From Hyphomicrobiales bacterium (lineage in GTDB: Bacteria; Pseudomonadota; Alphaproteobacteria; Rhizobiales; Aestuariivirgaceae): 64,000 nt of DNA. The stretch is taken from NCBI GenBank assembly GCA_025359265.1, contig JANYHB010000013.1, positions 16,963 to 80,962 on the forward strand, written 5' to 3'. Below are positions 47,321-60,585 of this stretch, one piece after another. The notes under the pieces are model-generated. The model ran no database searches. It saw nothing but the letters and a program-made list of their open reading frames with translations, and was not told the origin of the DNA. Positions within the stretch are counted from its first letter, which is position 1. The number at the start of each line of letters is the position of its first letter. A program made the position numbers and the translations under genes.

Positions 47321-49810
47321 ATGTTTGGACAAGCAATAGGTGAAAAATCAACAAGCGCTTTGTGGCGCGTTGCTTTATCATTTCTATGTGCGGCTATCCT
47401 GTTGGTTGGCTACTTTGCTTTCGTTGAAGACCGCATGCTCATTTCAGCGCAGATATTAAATGGCCTTGTTGCGGGGTTGAGCTTTTTTGGTTTGGCGTGG
47501 ATTTTCAACTGCATTCTGCATTTGTGGTTCAAACCAACCCCGGAAGCCGAGCAGCAGTTTTGCAACGCGCTGATCGATGCTTTGGGAGACCCAGCTGTGG
47601 TGCTGGATGGCAAGGGCCGCGCCGTTTATGCCAATGCGCCATTTATGCAGTTGGCTTCCAAGGCAGGCGTTTCAAGGCTGGTAGGTTTTGATGTTCTCTA
47701 TGCTGGCTATCCGGATTTTGTCGAACCCATTTATCAGCTGGGGCAGGCCGCTAAAGCCGGTGTTGTCAGCGCTCGCGATTTGCGGGTGCAGGCGGGCAGT
47801 TCCGCCCCGCATGCAGGGCGCGACGAAGCCAAGTGGCTGCGCCTTTGCGTGGCACCCCTCGCATCCAATTCCCGGGGCGGCAAAACCTTGTGGCGTTTGA
47901 TCGACATTACCGGTGATCGCGCCCATCAAGAGGAAGCATTCAGCCGCCTGCAATTTATTATTTCATATCTCGATCAAGCCCCGGTGGGTTTCTTCTCGGC
48001 TCTGCCTTCCGGCAAGGTTGACTATGTGAATGCCACTTTGGCCACATGGCTGGGCTTTGATTTGGGCGAGGTGCAATCAGGCAAACTGACGTTGAAGCAG
48101 TTACTGGGCGAAGAGGCTTCAAAAGTTTTATCAGCCTTGGCCCCGGTCACAGCCGGACAGAGAGTAGACCGATTCAAACTGCCTCTGAAAGCCAAAAACG
48201 GGCAAGTTGAGGTTTTCAGTTTGATGAACCGGGCGGATTTTGATGGCGCCGGCCACCCGTTGCCATCGCGCTGCATGGTGATGCGCGGCAGTGACGAAAC
48301 GGTTGAGCGCCAGGAGCAATCTGCGGGCCTTGCGCATCTTATATCTTCCATTCCCATTGGCTATGCCGAACTTGATGTGGAAGGCAATTTGGAAAATGCC
48401 AATAGGCAGTTTTTGGAGCTTTCAACACTCCTCAAGCGGGGCGCTTCGTTTGCCGAAGCCCTGGATGCAGATGGCGCAACGCGCTTCCGCAAATTTTGGC
48501 AGAATGCTGCGACGGAATCTGCTCCCTCATTCCAATTTGATTGCGGTTTTCAAGGTGCGGAGCCACGCAATGCCAATTTGTCTTTCAGCAAAGTTGCAGG
48601 CCAAGATCGCTTTGTGATTTTTGCAATTGATAAAACCGAAAGCCGCTTGATGGAAGCGCAACTGGCGCAGAGCCAGAAGATGCAAGCCATTGGCCAACTC
48701 TCATCTGGCTTGGCGCATGATTTCAACAATATGCTCACGCCCATCATTGGCTTTGCGGATTTGTTGCTTACCAAAATGCGGCCAACGGATCCATCGTTCC
48801 AAGATGTGATGAGCATCAAACAAAATGCCAATCGCGCGGCTGGCTTGGTGCGGCATCTGCTGGCTTTCTCGCGCAAGCAGACGATGCAGCCGAAAATGTA
48901 TGACCTTTCAGAATCGATGGCTGATCTTGGCGTGTTGCTGAAACGCGTGGTGGGAGACAAAGTGGATCTATCGATCAACTATGGCCGCGATTTATGGCCG
49001 GTGATGGTGGATATTCACCAGCTGGAGCAGGCCATTGTAAATCTCGCCTCCAACGCGCGCGATGCCATGCCGCAGGGCGGCAAGCTGGTGCTTTCCACAG
49101 CGAATGTTTCGGTTGAGCAATCACATGATTTTGGCCACGGTCTGCCCGCTGGCGAGTATGTTGTGGTGCAATCCACCGACACGGGGCAGGGCATTCCCAA
49201 GGCGATTGTGGATAAAATATGGGATCCGTTCTTCACCACCAAAGAGGTGGGCAAAGGCACCGGCCTTGGCCTTTCGATGGTTTATGGATTTGTGAAACAA
49301 TCGGGTGGCTTTATTTATTGTGATAGCGAAGTGGGCCATGGCACCACATTTCGCATTGTCTTGCCACGTCACATCGCCGAAACCGCACCTGTTGAAATTG
49401 CCAAACCGGCTGAATCAGAAGCCAAGCGTGAAGACTTCTCTGGCCGTGGGCGCGTGTTGATTGTTGAAGATGAAGACTCGGTGCGCGCCTTCGCATCGCG
49501 GGCCCTCACTTCGCGCGGCTATACGGTGGTTGAAGCCAACACCGGTGAAGTTGGGCTTGAAGTTGTTGAAGGCGATGCGCAGGGTTTTGAGTTGATCCTC
49601 TCAGACGTGGTGATGCCGGAAATGGACGGGCCTACCATGCTGAAAGAATTGCGCCAGCGTGGGCACAAGATGAAGTTCATTTTCATGTCTGGCTATGCCG
49701 AAGATGCATTTGAGAAGACACCGGATTTCCCCACGGATTTTGGCTTCTTGCAGAAACCGTTTTCACTGAAACAGCTGGTGGAAAAGGTGAAGGCAGAGCT
49801 GGGGCGATAG
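47321..49810 (+). CDS. cckA: hybrid histidine kinase CckA
   Basis: The cell-cycle phosphorelay kinase that drives CtrA in alphaproteobacteria. Two membrane helices (residues about 15-35 and 43-65) are followed by PAS-like regions (about 75-200, 205-320, 335-440), the dimerisation/HisKA domain with His466 ([10 protein letters not shown]), the ATPase domain with DTGQGIP and [10 protein letters not shown], and a C-terminal receiver with Asp762 ([11 protein letters not shown]). Length 829 is in the CckA range. It is a core gene. Divergent from the FliO-like gene. Confidence 0.94.
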
Positions 49811-50865: not shown

Positions 50866-51936
50866 ATGGGGCAAGCTAATCTGAAAGTTGTTGAGAATAT
50901 GGGAAGCGACAAGAGCAAAGCGTTGGAGGCAGCGCTCAGCCAAATTGAACGGGCCTTTGGCAAAGGCTCCATCATGAAGCTGGGGGCCAACCAAGCTTTG
51001 GAGATTGAGTCTATTTCAACGGGCTCTCTTGGCCTTGATATTGCCCTTGGCATTGGCGGTTTGCCACGTGGCCGGGTGATTGAAATTTATGGGCCTGAAT
51101 CATCGGGCAAAACCACGCTGGCTTTGCAAACCATTGCTGAAAGCCAAAAGCGCGGTGGCATTTGCGCTTTCGTCGACGCTGAACATGCGATGGATCCGAT
51201 TTATGCCAGGAAGCTGGGTGTGAATATTTCTGATTTGCTGATTTCGCAGCCAGACACGGGCGAGCAGGCCCTCGAAATTGCTGATACTTTAGTGCGTTCG
51301 GGTGCGATTGAAATTCTGGTGATTGATTCTGTTGCGGCTTTAACACCCAAGGCAGAGCTTGAGGGTGAAATGGGCGACAGCCTTCCCGGCTTGCAGGCGC
51401 GGTTGATGAGCCAAGCGTTGCGCAAACTCACGGGCTCTATTTCCAAATCCAATTGCATGGTGATTTTTATCAACCAAATCCGCATGAAGATTGGTGTGAT
51501 GTTTGGTTCTCCTGAAACCACCACGGGCGGCAATGCCTTGAAGTTTTATGCATCGGTGCGATTGGATATTCGCCGCATTGGTGCCATCAAAGACCGTGAG
51601 GAAGTTGTTGGCAACCAGACGCGTGTGAAGGTGGTTAAAAACAAAGTGGCCCCACCTTTCAAAATGGTGGAATTCGATATTATGTATGGCGAGGGCATTT
51701 CCAAAGTTGGCGAACTTGTTGACCTTGGCGTGACGGCTGGCGTGGTTGAAAAATCCGGCTCTTGGTATTCCTATGAGGGAGAGCGCATCGGGCAGGGCCG
51801 CGACAATGCTAAAATTTTCCTCAAGCAGCATCCAGATATGGCCAATAAGATTGAAGCGGCCATTCGTGCCAACGCCGGGCTTATTGCGGCTCGCATCACC
51901 GATGGATCAATCAAAGAGGATGACGGTGAAGCCTGA
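50866..51936 (+). CDS. recA: RecA recombinase
   Basis: The 356-residue recombinase for homologous recombination and SOS induction. Walker [10 protein letters not shown], Walker [10 protein letters not shown], and loop L1/L2 sequences ([29 protein letters not shown]) are intact. An RBS (AAGGAG) is eight bases before the ATG. SOS control is shown by the box upstream. A terminator follows. Confidence 0.98.
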
Positions 51937-52761: not shown

Positions 52762-55419
52762 ATGACTGGCTTAGCGCAAATCCGTTCCACGTTTTTAGAT
52801 TTCTATAAAAAGCACGGCCATGAGATTGTGCCATCCTCGCCACTGGTTCCGCGCAATGACCCCACTCTGATGTTTGCCAATTCCGGCATGGTACAGTTCA
52901 AGAACGTGTTCACCGGGGCCGAGAAACGCCCCTACACCCGCGCCACATCAGCGCAAAAATGCGTGCGGGCCGGCGGCAAACACAATGATTTGGACAATGT
53001 GGGTTACACCGCGCGACACCACACGTTTTTTGAAATGCTGGGCAATTTTTCGTTTGGCGATTATTTCAAACCTGATGCCATTGAATGGGCTTGGTCGTTG
53101 ATCACCAAGGAATATGGCCTGGCCAAGGACAAGCTTTCCGTCACGGTTTATCACAGTGATGATGATGCCTTTAACCTCTGGAAGAAAATTGCCGGCTTGC
53201 CGGATAGCCGCATCATCCGCATTGCCACTGCCGATAACTTCTGGGCCATGGGCGACACCGGGCCGTGCGGGCCGTGTTCGGAAATTTTCTTTGACCACGG
53301 CGACAAAATTTGGGGCGGCCCGCCAGGTTCAGCCGAACAGGACGGTGACCGCTTCATCGAGATTTGGAACCTGGTGTTCATGCAATATGAACAACTCAGC
53401 AAAGAGCAGCGGGTTAGCCTGCCCAAGCCATCCATTGATACGGGCATGGGGCTGGAACGCATGGCGGCCGTGCTGCAGGGCACGCATGACAACTATGAAA
53501 CCGATTTATTTCGCTCACTCATCGCTGCCATTGTCGAACAAACCAACGTGCCCGCTGAAGGTGAGGCCAAAGCCTCCAACCGGGTGATTGCCGATCACTT
53601 GCGGGCCACCTCCTTTTTGATTGCTGATGGCGTGATGCCTTCAAACGAAGGCCGCGGTTATGTGTTGCGCCGCATTATGCGCCGGGCCATGCGCCACGCG
53701 GAATTGCTGGGAGCCAGAGAGCCGCTGATGTTCAAGCTGGTGCCAGCATTGGTGCGCGAAATGGGCGCGGCTTACCCTGAGCTTTCGCGGGCGCAAGCCA
53801 TGATTACAGAAACGCTGAAGTTGGAAGAGACCCGCTTTCGCACAACCTTGGTGCGCGGCATGAAGCTGCTTTCCGACGAGTCGTCTGCCCTTAAAAAAGG
53901 CGACACGTTCTCGGGTGAGACGGCATTCAAACTCTACGACACTTATGGCTTCCCGCTTGATCTCACCCAAGATGCATTGAAAGCGCGCGACATTGCCGTT
54001 GATGGCGAGGCATTTGCCAAATCCATGGCCAAACAGAAAGCTGATGCGCGAGCCAAATGGAAAGGCACCGGCGAAGAAAAAACCGACACGATTTGGTTTG
54101 AAATTCGCGAGCGTGTGGGGCCAACCGAATTTTTGGGCTATGATACGGAACGGGCTGAGGGCGAGGTGATGGCCCTCACGCATGACGGCAAAGATGCCGC
54201 GACATTATCTGAGGGACAATCCGGTGCCATCCTTGTCAACCAAACACCATTTTATGGAGAAAGCGGCGGGCAGACGGGCGATCACGGCATCATTCGCCGA
54301 GCTGATGGCGCAATGTTCCGCGTGAAAGACACCCAGAAGCGCTTGGGTGACGTGTTTGTGCATAATGGCACGGTGGAGAAAGGATCTTTCCGCGTGGGCC
54401 AAGCGGTTGAACTTGAAGTGGATCATCAGCGGCGTTTTGGCAATCGCGCGCATCATTCGGCCACGCATTTGTTGCACGAAGGTTTGCGGCGCGTGTTGGG
54501 CCCACATGTGGCGCAAAAAGGTTCATTGGTTGAGCCAAATCGTTTGCGTTTTGATTTTTCCCATTCAAGAGCCTTAAGCGCCGATGAATTGGCAAATGTG
54601 GAAGCCATCGCCAATAGCGTCGTTTTGCAGAACGATGCGGTAAGCACGCGGTTGATGTCGGTTGACGCGGCCATAGCTGAAGGGGCCATGGCGCTGTTTG
54701 GTGAAAAATATGGCGATGAAGTGCGCGTGGTTTCCATGGGGCGCGATGAAGCGCACCCGCAACGCCAAATTTTCTCTCTTGAACTGTGCGGCGGCACCCA
54801 TGTGGGCCGCACTGGCGACATTGGCCTTATTCGCATCGTGGCTGAAACTGCATCCTCTGCCGGTGTGCGCCGCATGGAAGCTTTGGTTGGGGAAGCGGCG
54901 CGGAACTATCTGGGCGAGCAAGATCGCCGGGTATTGGCCGCAGCCTCAGCTTTAAAGGTGGCACCACAAGATGTTTTGTCGCGCATTGATGTTTTGCTGG
55001 ATGAGCGCCGCAAGATGGAGCGCGAGCTGGGCGATGCCAAGCGCCAGTTGGCGATGGGTGGCGCAAGTGCTTCTGGCGCAACGCTTGATATTGAAGAAAT
55101 CAACGGCGTTAAAGTGATAGTGCGATTGTTGAAAGGTGTTGCTGCTAATGATCTTAAACCCATGGCTGATGACGCTAAAAAAGCTGTCGGGTCGGGCATC
55201 GTGGTGCTGGTGTCGGTGAGTGATGATGGCAAGGGGGCCGTGGTTGCAGCTGTAACGCCAGACCTTATCAGCAAATACAACGCCATTGACTTGGTAAAAG
55301 CTGGGGCGGCGGCAATGGGCGGCAAGGGGGGTGGCGGCAGGCCCGATATGGCGCAGGCCGGTGGGCCCGAAGGCGCCAAAGCTGAACACGCTCTGGTTGC
55401 CGTAAAGGCATTGATTTAA
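52762..55419 (+). CDS. alaS: alanyl-tRNA synthetase
   Basis: An 885-residue class II synthetase. It has the aminoacylation core ([20 protein letters not shown], motif 2 [11 protein letters not shown], motif 3 [12 protein letters not shown]), the editing domain with [13 protein letters not shown] and [11 protein letters not shown] zinc motifs, and the C-Ala domain at the end with its Gly-rich stretch [16 protein letters not shown]. All parts are intact. Start ATG 52762 follows a weak AGG. It is a core gene in the recA-alaS neighbourhood. Confidence 0.97.
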
Positions 55420-55609: not shown

Positions 55610-57424
55610 ATGGTTCAGATGTTGGCATCGCAAGCCGCCGGTTTTCGTCTTGGGCGGATTGTAGCGTTGCTGTTGCTGCCGCTGCTGTGGATCTCTTTCG
55701 TGGTTGTGAATGATGGTTTCCAGCAACTGCGTGGAACGGAAATTACCAGCAATGGCATTGCCTTGATGGACAAGGTTTTCCATTTGATGCTCAACCGATT
55801 AAATAAGGGCGACGACCACCGCGAGGAATTTTCTTTTACGCCAGCAGATGAGCAGCTGGCTGATTCTGCCGGAGTGAGCAAAGAATTCAAGCTGGCGCAA
55901 GTTGCCGTTTCAAAGGCGCAACCCGACCCGCAAGAAATTTTACAGAAATCATTGGCACTGATGAAGTCGATTGGCACCGGGCCAATGGCAAACAGCTTGG
56001 CGGACATGGAAAGCCGGGCCTTGGTCACCGCGGCCAGCACGGTGATGCCCAGCGCTTTGGCCTCATTCGGGGAGATCAGTGAACTGACGGCGGCTTCGCT
56101 GCAAACGCCCGATCGCGCCAACGAAAAATTTCCGGAAATAGTCTCAAATGCGGCCGTTTTGCAGTTCAGCGCCAGACAACTCGACGATCTTGTGGTGCGC
56201 GCGCGCAGCCAAAGTTCAGATACGCAAGCCTATTCGGACTTACTGCGTTTGACATCGACGTTAACTTTCGACTCTGGCTATTTCAAAGTTCTGCTGTTCG
56301 GCCAAGCGGCTGATAGCCACCTGATGATGGGCAATGTGAACAACGCAATTGCGGAAGCCGGCTTCAAGTGGAGCGGTACGCTGAGCAAAGGTTGGGATAA
56401 CGTGAGGTTCAGGCTGAAAAGCTTGAACCAGGCGCACCGTGAAAATGCCAGCGCGCTGGCTTACCGCACACTTGGCTTGGCCGTGCTGGCCGTGCTGTTT
56501 AGTGTCGGCACTTCCATTTCGCTGTTCCGCTCCACCTTGCGCCAACTGGATGAGGTTGAAGCGTCGCGCAAAGCGGCAATTGCCGCGCGGCTTGATGCTG
56601 AGCAAGGGGCCAAGGAATTAAGCCAGGTGAACGACAATTTGGCGCAGATGAACAATGAAATGAATCAAAATCTGAAGTCTTTGCAAGCCGCACAAGATCA
56701 ACTTTTGAAAAAGGGCAGGCTTGAGCAGTTGGGGCAACTCACTGCTACAATTGCCCATGAATTACGCAATCCCTTGGGCGCGGTTCGCACTTCGGCTTTT
56801 TTGTTGGAACGCAAAACGCGCGGCAAGGATTTAGGAATTGAAAGCCAGTTACAACGCATCAACAGCGGCATTACGCGCTGCGACAATACCATAACGCAGC
56901 TGTTGGATTTCTCACGTTCACGCCAGGTTATTGCAAATCAGGATGATTTTGACGCTTGGCTGGAAAAGATAGTTTCCGAAGAAGCGCAAAGACTGCCGGT
57001 TTCAGTTCTGCTGAATTGCAAACTGGGCCTGGCTGGTTTGGCGGTGGCCTTTGACGCAGCGCGCATGCAGCGTGCCGTGGCGAATTTAATTTCCAATGCT
57101 TCCGAGGCGTTGGTTGGCAATGGGGAAGAGGCTGCAAAATATACAACTCTTGATCCCACCATTACCATCACGTCGATGCGTGATGGCGACAGCATTGTGG
57201 TTTTGGTATCCGACAACGGGCCGGGCATTACACCCGAAGATTTACTGCGCATCCGCGAGCCCCTGTTCACCACCAAGAATTTTGGTACTGGTCTGGGCCT
57301 GCCCGCTGTTGAGCAGATTTTAGCGCAGCATGGCGGCAGCTTGGCCGTGACTTCGGCATTGGGTGCTGGTGCGTGCTTCACCATGCGCATCCCTATCGCC
57401 GGGGTTGAGGAACTGGTCGCATGA
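55610..57424 (+). CDS. membrane histidine kinase (HK1 of a two-kinase operon)
   Basis: A 604-residue kinase. A membrane helix (13-33), a long periplasmic part (34-284) without a recognisable named sensor domain, a second helix (285-305), a coiled coil (310-365) and then the kinase core. The H-box is TATIAHELRNPLGAVRTSA with His383; N-box NLISNASEAL; G1 DNGPGI; G2 GTGLGL. The catalytic set is complete. Its stop overlaps the next kinase start (ATGA), so the pair is coupled. The core is closely similar to that of HK2, pointing to duplication. A GC hairpin (55573-55593) lies before its RBS. Confidence 0.9.
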   Translation: MVQMLASQAAGFRLGRIVALLLLPLLWISFVVVNDGFQQLRGTEITSNGIALMDKVFHLMLNRLNKGDDHREEFSFTPADEQLADSAGVSKEFKLAQVAVSKAQPDPQEILQKSLALMKSIGTGPMANSLADMESRALVTAASTVMPSALASFGEISELTAASLQTPDRANEKFPEIVSNAAVLQFSARQLDDLVVRARSQSSDTQAYSDLLRLTSTLTFDSGYFKVLLFGQAADSHLMMGNVNNAIAEAGFKWSGTLSKGWDNVRFRLKSLNQAHRENASALAYRTLGLAVLAVLFSVGTSISLFRSTLRQLDEVEASRKAAIAARLDAEQGAKELSQVNDNLAQMNNEMNQNLKSLQAAQDQLLKKGRLEQLGQLTATIAHELRNPLGAVRTSAFLLERKTRGKDLGIESQLQRINSGITRCDNTITQLLDFSRSRQVIANQDDFDAWLEKIVSEEAQRLPVSVLLNCKLGLAGLAVAFDAARMQRAVANLISNASEALVGNGEEAAKYTTLDPTITITSMRDGDSIVVLVSDNGPGITPEDLLRIREPLFTTKNFGTGLGLPAVEQILAQHGGSLAVTSALGAGACFTMRIPIAGVEELVA

Positions 57425-58941
57425 GCATGGAACAGAACAGCCAGGAGATCTCAGCTGAATTTCTTCTGCGCATGCTGGATGCACTGCCGACACCGATCTT
57501 CGTGAAGGATAAGGCTGCCCGGTTTGTATATTCGAATCGTAAACATAATGAACTCGTTCAGCTGCGCGGGGATGATATTGTCGGCAAAACGGATGCGCAA
57601 ATCTATCCATCCCACATTGCACAGGATTATGTGCGCACTGACAAGCTGGTGCTTGAAACAGGCACAATCTCATCAATTGAGGAAATGGCGCTCGCACGCG
57701 ATGGCACGCAGCAGCCCGTTCTCAATCGTAAAGTGCGTATGCTCGCGCGTGATGGTGAGCCCTATGTGGTGGGAATCAACTTCAGTTTGTCTGAGGTCAA
57801 AAAGCGCGAAGATCAATATCTTGCCTTGGCTGAAACCGTTCCCGTTGGGGTTTTGCAGATTGAAGAAAATGGCTCCGTCAGTTTCAGCAATCCAATCACC
57901 AGTACATATTTCGTCAAAGCCGAGCAGGGCCTAACCATCTCACAAGTTTCTGCGGCCTTGGGCAACCCCAAGGGCTTTCCAGGGGATGCAACCCGCTTCG
58001 AATGCAGCCTTCGTGATTTGGCGGGCGAACAACACTATGTTTTGGTGATCAGTTCCGGGTGGTTGAAGCTAGGCAAGAATTCCAGCCGTTCCTCCATTGT
58101 AAGCATCGTTGATATTTCAGAAAACGCCGAACTGAAGCGCATCAATGAAGAAATTTTGCGCCTCAACCGCGAACTTGCCACCAGCATGCAAAAACTGAAA
58201 GACGCACAAGATGCCCTGGTTAAAAAAGGGCGGCTTGAGCAAATGGGGCAACTGACAGCCACGATAGCCCACGAGTTGCGCAACCCTCTTGGTGCAGTTC
58301 GAACCTCGGTGTTTTTGGTAGAGCGTAAAATAAAGGGCAAAAATCTGGGCTTGGAGCCGCAGTTGCAACGCATCAACAACGGTGTTTCACGTTGCGATGC
58401 CATCATCACGCAGCTTTTGGATTTTTCGCGCACCAAACAGCTTGAATGCAAATCCGAAGATCTTGATCAATGGCTGGCTAAATTGTGTGAGGAAGAGGCT
58501 AAGCGATTGGCGGGATGTATTAACCTGTCGTGTTACCTCGGGCTTGATGGTGCCCACATTCCGTTTGATCCCAGCCGGTTGCAGCGCGCCATTGCCAATC
58601 TTATTTCCAATGCGTCGGAAGCCATGGTGGGAAATGGTGATCTGCCGCTTCCCAGCCAGCGCGAAGAACCCTGTATTCGTTTGACCACGCGCCTGATGGG
58701 GCGCCATGCTGAAATTGAAGTTGCCGACAATGGCCCAGGAATAGAAGAAGGTGTAATTGAGAAAATTCGCGAACCACTGTTCACCACCAAAAGCTTTGGC
58801 ACGGGCCTCGGCGTGCCGGCTGTAGAGCAAATCGCCGCGCAACACGGTGGAACCCTGGTCATCAAATCACAGCCCGGCAGAGGTGCAAGTTTTGTTATTC
58901 GCCTGCCGCTTGATCAGCAAGTTAACGTGGACGCCGCCTGA
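57421..58941 (+). CDS. cytosolic PAS histidine kinase (HK2 of a two-kinase operon)
   Basis: A 506-residue kinase without membrane helices. Two PAS domains (about 17-125 with ALPTPIFVKD, and 132-235 with TVPVGVLQIE) precede a coiled coil (236-270) and the kinase core with His284 in IAHELRNPLGAVRTSVFL, N-box NLISNASEAM, DNGPGI and GTGLGV. The same H-box, spacing and QLLDFSR are seen as in HK1. PAS ligands are not readable. It overlaps HK1 by four bases and is 45 bases before the receiver gene. Confidence 0.9.
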   Translation: MSMEQNSQEISAEFLLRMLDALPTPIFVKDKAARFVYSNRKHNELVQLRGDDIVGKTDAQIYPSHIAQDYVRTDKLVLETGTISSIEEMALARDGTQQPVLNRKVRMLARDGEPYVVGINFSLSEVKKREDQYLALAETVPVGVLQIEENGSVSFSNPITSTYFVKAEQGLTISQVSAALGNPKGFPGDATRFECSLRDLAGEQHYVLVISSGWLKLGKNSSRSSIVSIVDISENAELKRINEEILRLNRELATSMQKLKDAQDALVKKGRLEQMGQLTATIAHELRNPLGAVRTSVFLVERKIKGKNLGLEPQLQRINNGVSRCDAIITQLLDFSRTKQLECKSEDLDQWLAKLCEEEAKRLAGCINLSCYLGLDGAHIPFDPSRLQRAIANLISNASEAMVGNGDLPLPSQREEPCIRLTTRLMGRHAEIEVADNGPGIEEGVIEKIREPLFTTKSFGTGLGVPAVEQIAAQHGGTLVIKSQPGRGASFVIRLPLDQQVNVDAA

Positions 58942-58986
58942 CATAGGCAAACGCAAAGTATTTAGAAACACATTGAGGAATAAAAA

Positions 58987-59349
58987 ATGAAGCAGTTGAA
59001 CATACTTGTTGTTGATGATGATGCTGAAAACGCCGAGTCTATCGCCGAACTATTTTCGGCTGATAATCACCGCGTTATCATTGCCTATAACGGCCAAGAA
59101 GCGATTGACGCTTATGCGGCATTTGAGTTTGACGTTGGCTTTTTTGATGTGATGATGCCGGTCAAGAATGGTGTTGAAAGCTTTTTGGAAATCAGAAAGT
59201 TCAATCCCACGGCAAAAGTTTATTTCATGACGGGATATTCCGACGGTCAACTGCTGGATGAAGCGCGCGCGGGTGGCGCGCTGGGGGTGTTTTCCAAACC
59301 CACCGATCCTGAGCGATTGCTCGACATAGTGGATCACGAAGCGGCATAG
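58987..59349 (+). CDS. single-domain response regulator
   Basis: A 120-residue receiver without an output domain. Acidic pair DDD (10-12), phosphoacceptor Asp54 (GFFDVMMP), Thr82 (MTGYSD) and Lys104 (FSKPTD) are all present. It follows the two kinases and is their probable partner; with no DNA-binding or enzymatic part it may act by protein contact (like DivK) or as a phosphate sink. The RBS (GAGGAATAAAAA) is close. Confidence 0.93.
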   Translation: MKQLNILVVDDDAENAESIAELFSADNHRVIIAYNGQEAIDAYAAFEFDVGFFDVMMPVKNGVESFLEIRKFNPTAKVYFMTGYSDGQLLDEARAGGALGVFSKPTDPERLLDIVDHEAA

Positions 59350-59373: not shown

Positions 59374-60585
59374 TCAAGCCATCGCCAAGTGCAGGTTTTT
59401 ATCCACCGCTTCGATAAAGCCCTCAGTTGTCAGCCACTTTTGATCAGGACCCACCAGAACAGCCAAGTCTTTCGTCATCTTGCCCTGTTCAATCGTCTGT
59501 ACACAGACATTTTCAAGCGTTTGCGCAAATGTGGCCAATTTGGCATTGTCGTCCAGCTTGGCGCGGTGCTTTAATCCACCTGTCCAAGCAAAAATTGATG
59601 CGGTGGAGTTGGTGGAAGTGGGTTTGCCCTGCTGGTGCAAACGGTAATGGCGTGTCACCGTGCCGTGCGCCGCTTCGGCCTCAACAGTTTTGCCATCGGG
59701 TGTGAGCAACACAGAAGTCATCAAGCCCAATGAACCATAACCCTGGGCAACCAAGTCTGACTGCACGTCACCATCATAATTTTTGCAAGCCCAGATATAA
59801 CCGCCCGTCCATTTCATCGCTGAGGCCACCATGTCATCAATCAGGCGATGCTCATAGGTTATGCCTGCGTTTGCGTAATCGGCTTTGAACTCGGTATCAA
59901 AGACAGCTTGGAAAATATCTTTGAAGCGGCCGTCATAGATTTTCAAAATGGTATTTTTTGAAGAGAAGTAAACCGGCAGTTTGCGTTGCAACCCATAATT
60001 CAGCGAAGCTCTGGCAAACTCGGTGATTGAATCCTCCAAATTATACATCGCCAAAGCGATGCCCGCACTGGGGGCTTTGAACACTTCCTTTTCAATCACC
60101 TGGCCATCGTCGCCCACAAATTTCATCGTCAGCGTGCCCTTTCCGGGGAAAGTGAAATCAGTGGCGCGGTATTGATCGCCATAAGCGTGTCGGCCAATGA
60201 TGATGGGCTTGGTCCACCCCGGCACGAGGCGCGGCACGTTTTCACAAATGATTGGCTCACGAAAAATTACACCACCTAAAATGTTGCGGATGGTGCCGTT
60301 GGGTGATTTCCACATCTGCTTCAGGCCAAACTCTTTTACGCGGGCCGCATCGGGCGTGATGGTGGCGCATTTCACGCCCACGCCATATTGTTTGATGGCA
60401 TGAGCGGCATCAACAGTGACTTTGTCGTCCGTGGCATCGCGGTGTTCCATGCCAAGATCATAATATTTCAAATCGATATCCAGATAAGGCAGAATCAGTT
60501 TCTGCTTGATCAAATCCCAGATAATGCGCGTCATCTCATCGCCATCGAGTTCAACAACCGGATTTACGACTTTGATCTTATCCAT
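59374..60585 (-). CDS. icd: NADP-dependent isocitrate dehydrogenase
   Basis: A 403-residue homodimeric, eukaryote-like enzyme that oxidises isocitrate to 2-oxoglutarate, making NADPH. It starts [20 protein letters not shown]; the isocitrate-binding region is [13 protein letters not shown], and [19 protein letters not shown] is in the NADP site. Length and motifs fit TIGR00127-type. It converges on the receiver gene with 24 bases between. A core TCA gene. Confidence 0.96.

Follow-up and report, generated by a model that had tools for sequence, protein, structure and literature searches.

How a locus that encodes two histidine kinases and a lone receiver could act on the cell when an output domain is absent from every protein of the cluster is the question raised by the 64,000-nucleotide stretch of Hyphomicrobiales DNA analyzed here (the window). 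Output-less receivers of obscure role are common in bacterial genomes. The explanation that we favor, and that the sequences make reasonably probable, is a fan-in two-component system in which two kinases would feed one diffusible single-domain receiver acting in trans. The preliminary description of the locus had the coordinates, the frames and the four-base overlap of the kinase genes right (Table 1), and this ATGA overlap is consistent with translational coupling of HK1 and HK2. Its coupled three-gene operon needs one qualification, in that the receiver gene follows HK2 after a gap and without overlap. Promoter and terminator scans at the locus gave matches no commoner than chance, and NCBIfam held no equivalog above cut-off for HK1, HK2, or the receiver.

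Table 1. Features of the locus between alaS and icd (window positions; residue numbers for protein domains).
Feature	Position	Strand	Remark
alaS	52762..55419	+	left boundary of conserved slot, outside the system
HK1, membrane histidine kinase, 604 aa	55610..57424	+	
HK1 HisKA	residues 374-438		His383
HK1 HATPase_c	residues 482-596		
ATGA, HK1 stop TGA / HK2 start ATG overlap	57421..57424	+	4 bases
HK2, soluble histidine kinase, 506 aa	57421..58941	+	
HK2 HisKA	residues 275-338		His284
HK2 HATPase_c	residues 383-498		
Gap of 45 nt, HK2 to receiver	58942..58986	+	REC-REC site in closest system-bearing congeners
Single-domain receiver (P0003), 120 aa	58987..59349	+	
icd, convergent	59374..60585	-	right boundary of conserved slot, outside the system

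Both kinases possess a HisKA domain with its conserved His and a HATPase_c domain with N and G boxes, and they differ in what precedes them. In HK1, Pfam recognizes HisKA and HATPase_c over residues 374-596 and no sensor domain; the N-terminal sensor, at approximately residues 35-284, is flanked by two predicted membrane segments, in agreement with the earlier view of a membrane kinase whose sensor belongs to no recognized class. AlphaFold predicts this region to be all-helical with mostly good confidence (pLDDT mostly 80-95, with a weak stretch at ~61-80). For HK2, Pfam reports PAS_4/PAS, HisKA, and HATPase_c and misses the second PAS; the AlphaFold model has the PAS-like order of strands and helices at residues 12-122 and again at 124-231, as expected of a cytosolic kinase with a double PAS. 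These models were built from congener alignments and are of moderate overall confidence (pLDDT 78.6 for HK1 and 75.7 for HK2, with low values in the linkers), and their pTM values of 0.49 and 0.37 make the relative placement of domains unreliable. A fold search with HK1 returned the kinase core for all of the top matches listed and none for the sensor.

The transmitters of HK1 and HK2 share 57% identity across 261 ungapped aa, and their DHp helices are 78% identical to each other and 22-31% identical to those of eight further kinases encoded in the genome. A maximum-likelihood tree of 67 transmitter cores places all kinases of the genus in one clade of 59 rows (support 100/99) that is distinct from the majority of the kinases of other families and has a poorly resolved deep branching order; within it, the HK1-type and HK2-type proteins of neighboring species separate into different clades, which dates the duplication to before these species. 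This identity, the shared clade, and the different sensor domains support the proposal that the two kinases arose by duplication and then took on different sensor parts. They clearly illustrate duplicated kinases whose sensors changed while one phosphotransfer code was kept. Such close DHp helices, together with a gene overlap that suggests co-translation, could also mean that HK1 and HK2 form mixed dimers and combine their signals at the kinase instead of the receiver. We regard this as quite improbable, since receiver genes separate the two kinases in the congeners L071, L074, and L079 and further paralogs sit at unlinked loci.

The receiver itself matches Response_reg over residues 6-115 of its 120 and nothing else; a hidden output, whether DNA-binding or enzymatic, was looked for and not found. 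Its pocket (D10/D11, the phospho-acceptor D54, T82, and K104) is invariant in 17 orthologs, and its beta4-alpha4 motif reads VYFMTGYS. CheY-like proteins have an aromatic switch residue, and hub or relay receivers tend to have a non-aromatic one; the window receiver has V101 (K-3) at this Y-T switch position, where 3 of the 17 orthologs have F. An intact pocket also bears on a quite different role for the protein, as a kinase inhibitor that, like Osp and FixT, would not itself be phosphorylated and would target HK1 and HK2 or an upstream CckA. There is a CckA-like gene in the window (47321-49810), and the CckA of Rhodobacter sphaeroides is inhibited by Osp (PMC9430884), but conserved acidic residues are missing from Osp and FixT, which do not become phosphorylated (PMC9430884). 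Membership in that group was rejected on this ground, the acidic pocket that is lost there being wholly invariant here, and inhibition of this kind seems highly improbable. The CckA-like hybrid kinase scores 830 bits against a Brucella-type CckA model with a cut-off of 1000 bits; recA (50866-51936) and alaS lie downstream of it, and in the congener loci that extend this far, a hybrid kinase is again found upstream of alaS.

If both kinases serve this receiver, their partner-recognition surfaces should agree. We read specificity positions according to the published HK853/RR468 rewiring, taken from PDB titles (A268, A271, T275, V294, and D297 in the kinase; V13, L14, I17, and N21 in the receiver). 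HK1 reads ATLRS and HK2 ATLRN, agreeing at 4 of 5 positions, and most of this code is conserved in 18 HK1-type and 19 HK2-type proteins of the genus. The other readable kinases of the genome have AGIDS (two), AGMYQ, AGVTE, SGTSG, and SSTIH. The receiver has the alpha-1 code ENSL, which was not found in full in other receivers sampled from the genome, the nearest being DLSL; in the tandem-receiver protein (REC-REC) that accompanies the system in congeners, the first receiver reads DNSL in 19 of 20 aligned sequences, the 19 including every aligned sequence of the genus. A shared DHp code and an alpha-1 code that stands alone among the receivers sampled support, without proving it, that both kinases serve the receiver and formerly also served the REC-REC protein. 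Together with co-occurrence and linkage, they indicate that HK1 and HK2 probably converge on this receiver, as had been suggested.

A third sister kinase of 585 aa is encoded elsewhere in the genome between rplI and dnaB, with no adjacent receiver (L055:7435-9192, G000:C37). Its DHp is 65-69% identical to those of HK1 and HK2, and its code, TTSRK, has two of five positions in common with theirs. We do not count it as a proven third input because only these two code positions match and because, among the relatives checked, the rplI-dnaB slot shows no conservation.

From the catalytic residues, the code, the linkage, the co-occurrence, and the absent output, all of them read from sequence, we infer phosphotransfer, the signals, and every step past the receiver. 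HK1 would read a periplasmic or membrane signal through its helical sensor, and HK2 a cytosolic cue through its two PAS domains; each would autophosphorylate on its His and pass phosphate to D54 of the receiver, which in its phosphorylated form would act in trans, either through binding to a target or through onward transfer of the phosphate, as CheY, Spo0F, and MrrA do.

The slot between alaS and icd holds it across the genus. Of 37 genus genomes, 24 encode both kinase and receiver, 3 a kinase only, none a receiver only, and 10 neither (Fisher p ~8e-7, with relatedness ignored); rare co-occurrence, which would have spoken against the pairing, is not what these genomes display. In the wider family, all 8 receiver-bearing genomes, from four other genera, carry sister kinases at E <1e-100, and five tested genomes without the receiver have no sister kinase as strong as this. 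Most system-bearing members have two kinases in the slot, with three in L077 and L078 and a single one in L047, L048, L049, L052, and L053. The layout is conserved, usually with an additional REC-REC gene, and the gene order varies: we find HK-HK-RECREC-REC (for example, L067, L068, L069, L070, L075, L076, and L080), HK-RECREC-REC-HK (L071 and L079), and HK-RECREC-HK-REC (L084, L085, and L086). In the genomes G013, G014, and G027 (98-100% complete), the kinases have their H, N, and G boxes intact, but such a receiver is absent. Because kinases are kept without it in three near-complete genomes, the receiver may not be their sole target; these receiver-less kinases may have another target or may be drifting. 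Single intact kinases occupy the slot at L049:9650-11434, L048:8447-10039, and L052:8097-9686 in near-complete congeners with no related receiver anywhere.

The REC-REC protein, of ~240 aa, occurs in 22 of the 24 genus genomes with kinase and receiver, usually in the same cluster, and is missing from the window genome (99.9% complete) and from G016 (L053). Searched with the REC-REC family profile, the window genome yielded the single receiver only, followed by unrelated receivers at no more than 49 bits. The closest relatives carry the protein, among them G019, whose kinase is nearest to HK2 in the tree, and its absence here is therefore a loss; the fragmented genomes G009 and G026 show REC-REC only, because their contigs end. 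The longer receivers of congeners were also considered as forms bearing a lost output, and this was rejected, their extra 120 aa being a second receiver instead. REC-REC has an intact first receiver, and its second remains intact in L086, L050, L084, and L085 and is degenerate in many others, with G221, K225, P226, and F227 of its TGxLNKPFDP segment invariant. The second receivers of L071, L073, L074, L077, and L079 have lost the acidic and phosphorylation-site residues and kept TGxLNKPFDP. The REC-REC of other species was probably a second acceptor or competitor that is lost here, and the window locus is a reduced form of the conserved layout. A single receiver without an output domain is thus true of this locus, but most congeners add REC-REC, and this genome has the third sister kinase elsewhere; the first reading was right on the anatomy, and probably on convergence, of what it saw, a reduced form.

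Two further readings give the receivers other roles. The single receiver could act as a sink for phosphate or as a feedback damper, in the way of LovR next to LovK, with the real output of the kinases coming from another response regulator elsewhere in the genome. The persistence of intact kinases without a receiver in G013, G014, and G027 and the absence of REC-REC from two lineages that keep the system both speak for this, but none of the remaining receivers sampled in the genome has a matching alpha-1 code, and it is the single receiver that is retained where REC-REC is missing (the window and G016), so we think a sink unlikely. The other reading, speculative and also unlikely, is that in this kinase-expanded system, whose receivers are all output-less, the active receiver and REC-REC, in many species with an active first and a worn second receiver, form a phosphate-partitioning switch between a shuttle and a decoy or adaptor. 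If so, the window and G016 would be natural decoy deletions, and G013, G014, and G027 deletions of both. One genus provides a natural series (kinases with REC-REC and REC, kinases with REC, kinases only, and nothing), so each receiver's contribution could be compared across species.

As the preliminary description had supposed, no named system or paper with this three-gene layout was found in the open-access literature; the locus is a real, conserved, uncharacterized signaling module and an unnamed variant of a familiar arrangement. The FATGUY motif, PFxFATGY, lies at beta4-alpha4, and the kinases of that family are mainly HWE or HisKA2. Like MrrA/SdrG, the window receiver is an alphaproteobacterial single-domain receiver that has several kinases and whose Y-T switch residue is not aromatic; unlike them, it has YFMTGY in place of PFxFATGY, its kinases are HisKA, and they are encoded in the receiver's own cluster. 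FATGUY membership was accordingly rejected on the motif (VYFMTGYS) and the kinases (PF00512 HisKA), with only the lack of the Y-T coupling residue fitting. MrrA is a many-to-one single-domain receiver that accepts one HisKA kinase and is also without an aromatic switch residue (PMC5964349). With KinA-E/Spo0F of Bacillus, the locus shares several homologous transmitters, which here have a common code and would converge on one single-domain receiver, but no Spo0B or Spo0A equivalents were identified here, the kinase genes overlap, and relatives have REC-REC. The switch residue of Spo0F is non-aromatic, as in the window receiver. Spo0F, too, is a many-to-one single-domain receiver (PMC12471899). 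LovK-LovR likewise pairs a kinase and a single-domain receiver in one operon, but LovK is a HisKA2 kinase with a LOV domain, and here there are two HisKA kinases. AtoS and ZraS are the closest curated transmitter models, matching the transmitter only and far below cut-off; their partners AtoC and ZraR belong to the sigma-54 regulators and carry outputs, and no such regulator is present here. PleD-type tandem receivers resemble REC-REC in having an adaptor-like second receiver, but the congener proteins have neither GGDEF nor another output. On these comparisons, the best reading is that the receiver would work like Spo0F or MrrA, outside the MrrA/SdrG FATGUY family.

Outside the genus, homologs of the REC-REC gene adjoin or lie near genes for Hpt-REC proteins (L054 and L110), and homologs of the receiver lie beside REC-EAL proteins (L192 and L194), REC-kinases (L111, L190, and L193), and a REC-PAS-GGDEF-EAL protein (L112). 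Such output-linked neighbors suggest that these receivers feed larger networks, including c-di-GMP or phosphorelay ones. A more specific form of the fan-in explanation, whose confidence overlaps with that of the general one, would make the receiver the first step of a phosphorelay with the layout of Spo0F, from kinase to receiver to Hpt to an output regulator. The Hpt-REC and REC-EAL neighbors point this way, as do Spo0F among the profile matches of the receiver and a small Hpt-like protein encoded in the genome (L225:4586-5017, G000:C21; HTLRGAAAAVGA). This protein, however, is genus-wide, including genomes without the system, and falls below the Pfam cut-off, and no Spo0A-like target was identified in the genome; the relay is a possibility that we entertain only tentatively. 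The Hpt-like protein is the sole PF01627 match in the genome, and as a dedicated partner it is unsupported, occurring with or without the kinase-receiver system.

In L192:7338-12444 (G073, of another family), two sister kinases, a single receiver, and a REC-EAL phosphodiesterase lie in one gene run, and L194 has the same kinds of genes in another order with one kinase. At L054:7223-12268, a kinase, REC-REC, a CpaB/RcpC protein of Flp pili, and Hpt-REC are side by side, the pilus neighbor being a possible functional hint. The Hyphomicrobiales MAG L113, a long-branch outsider that falls within the 59-row kinase clade, keeps the genus order of alaS, kinase, REC-REC, and icd. Its REC-REC (L113:6887-7630) is diverged, and in its kinase (L113:5388-6926) the catalytic His is replaced (TRQLRNP) and the ATP-lid motifs are eroded, so that by its sequence L113 is a pseudokinase form of the system.
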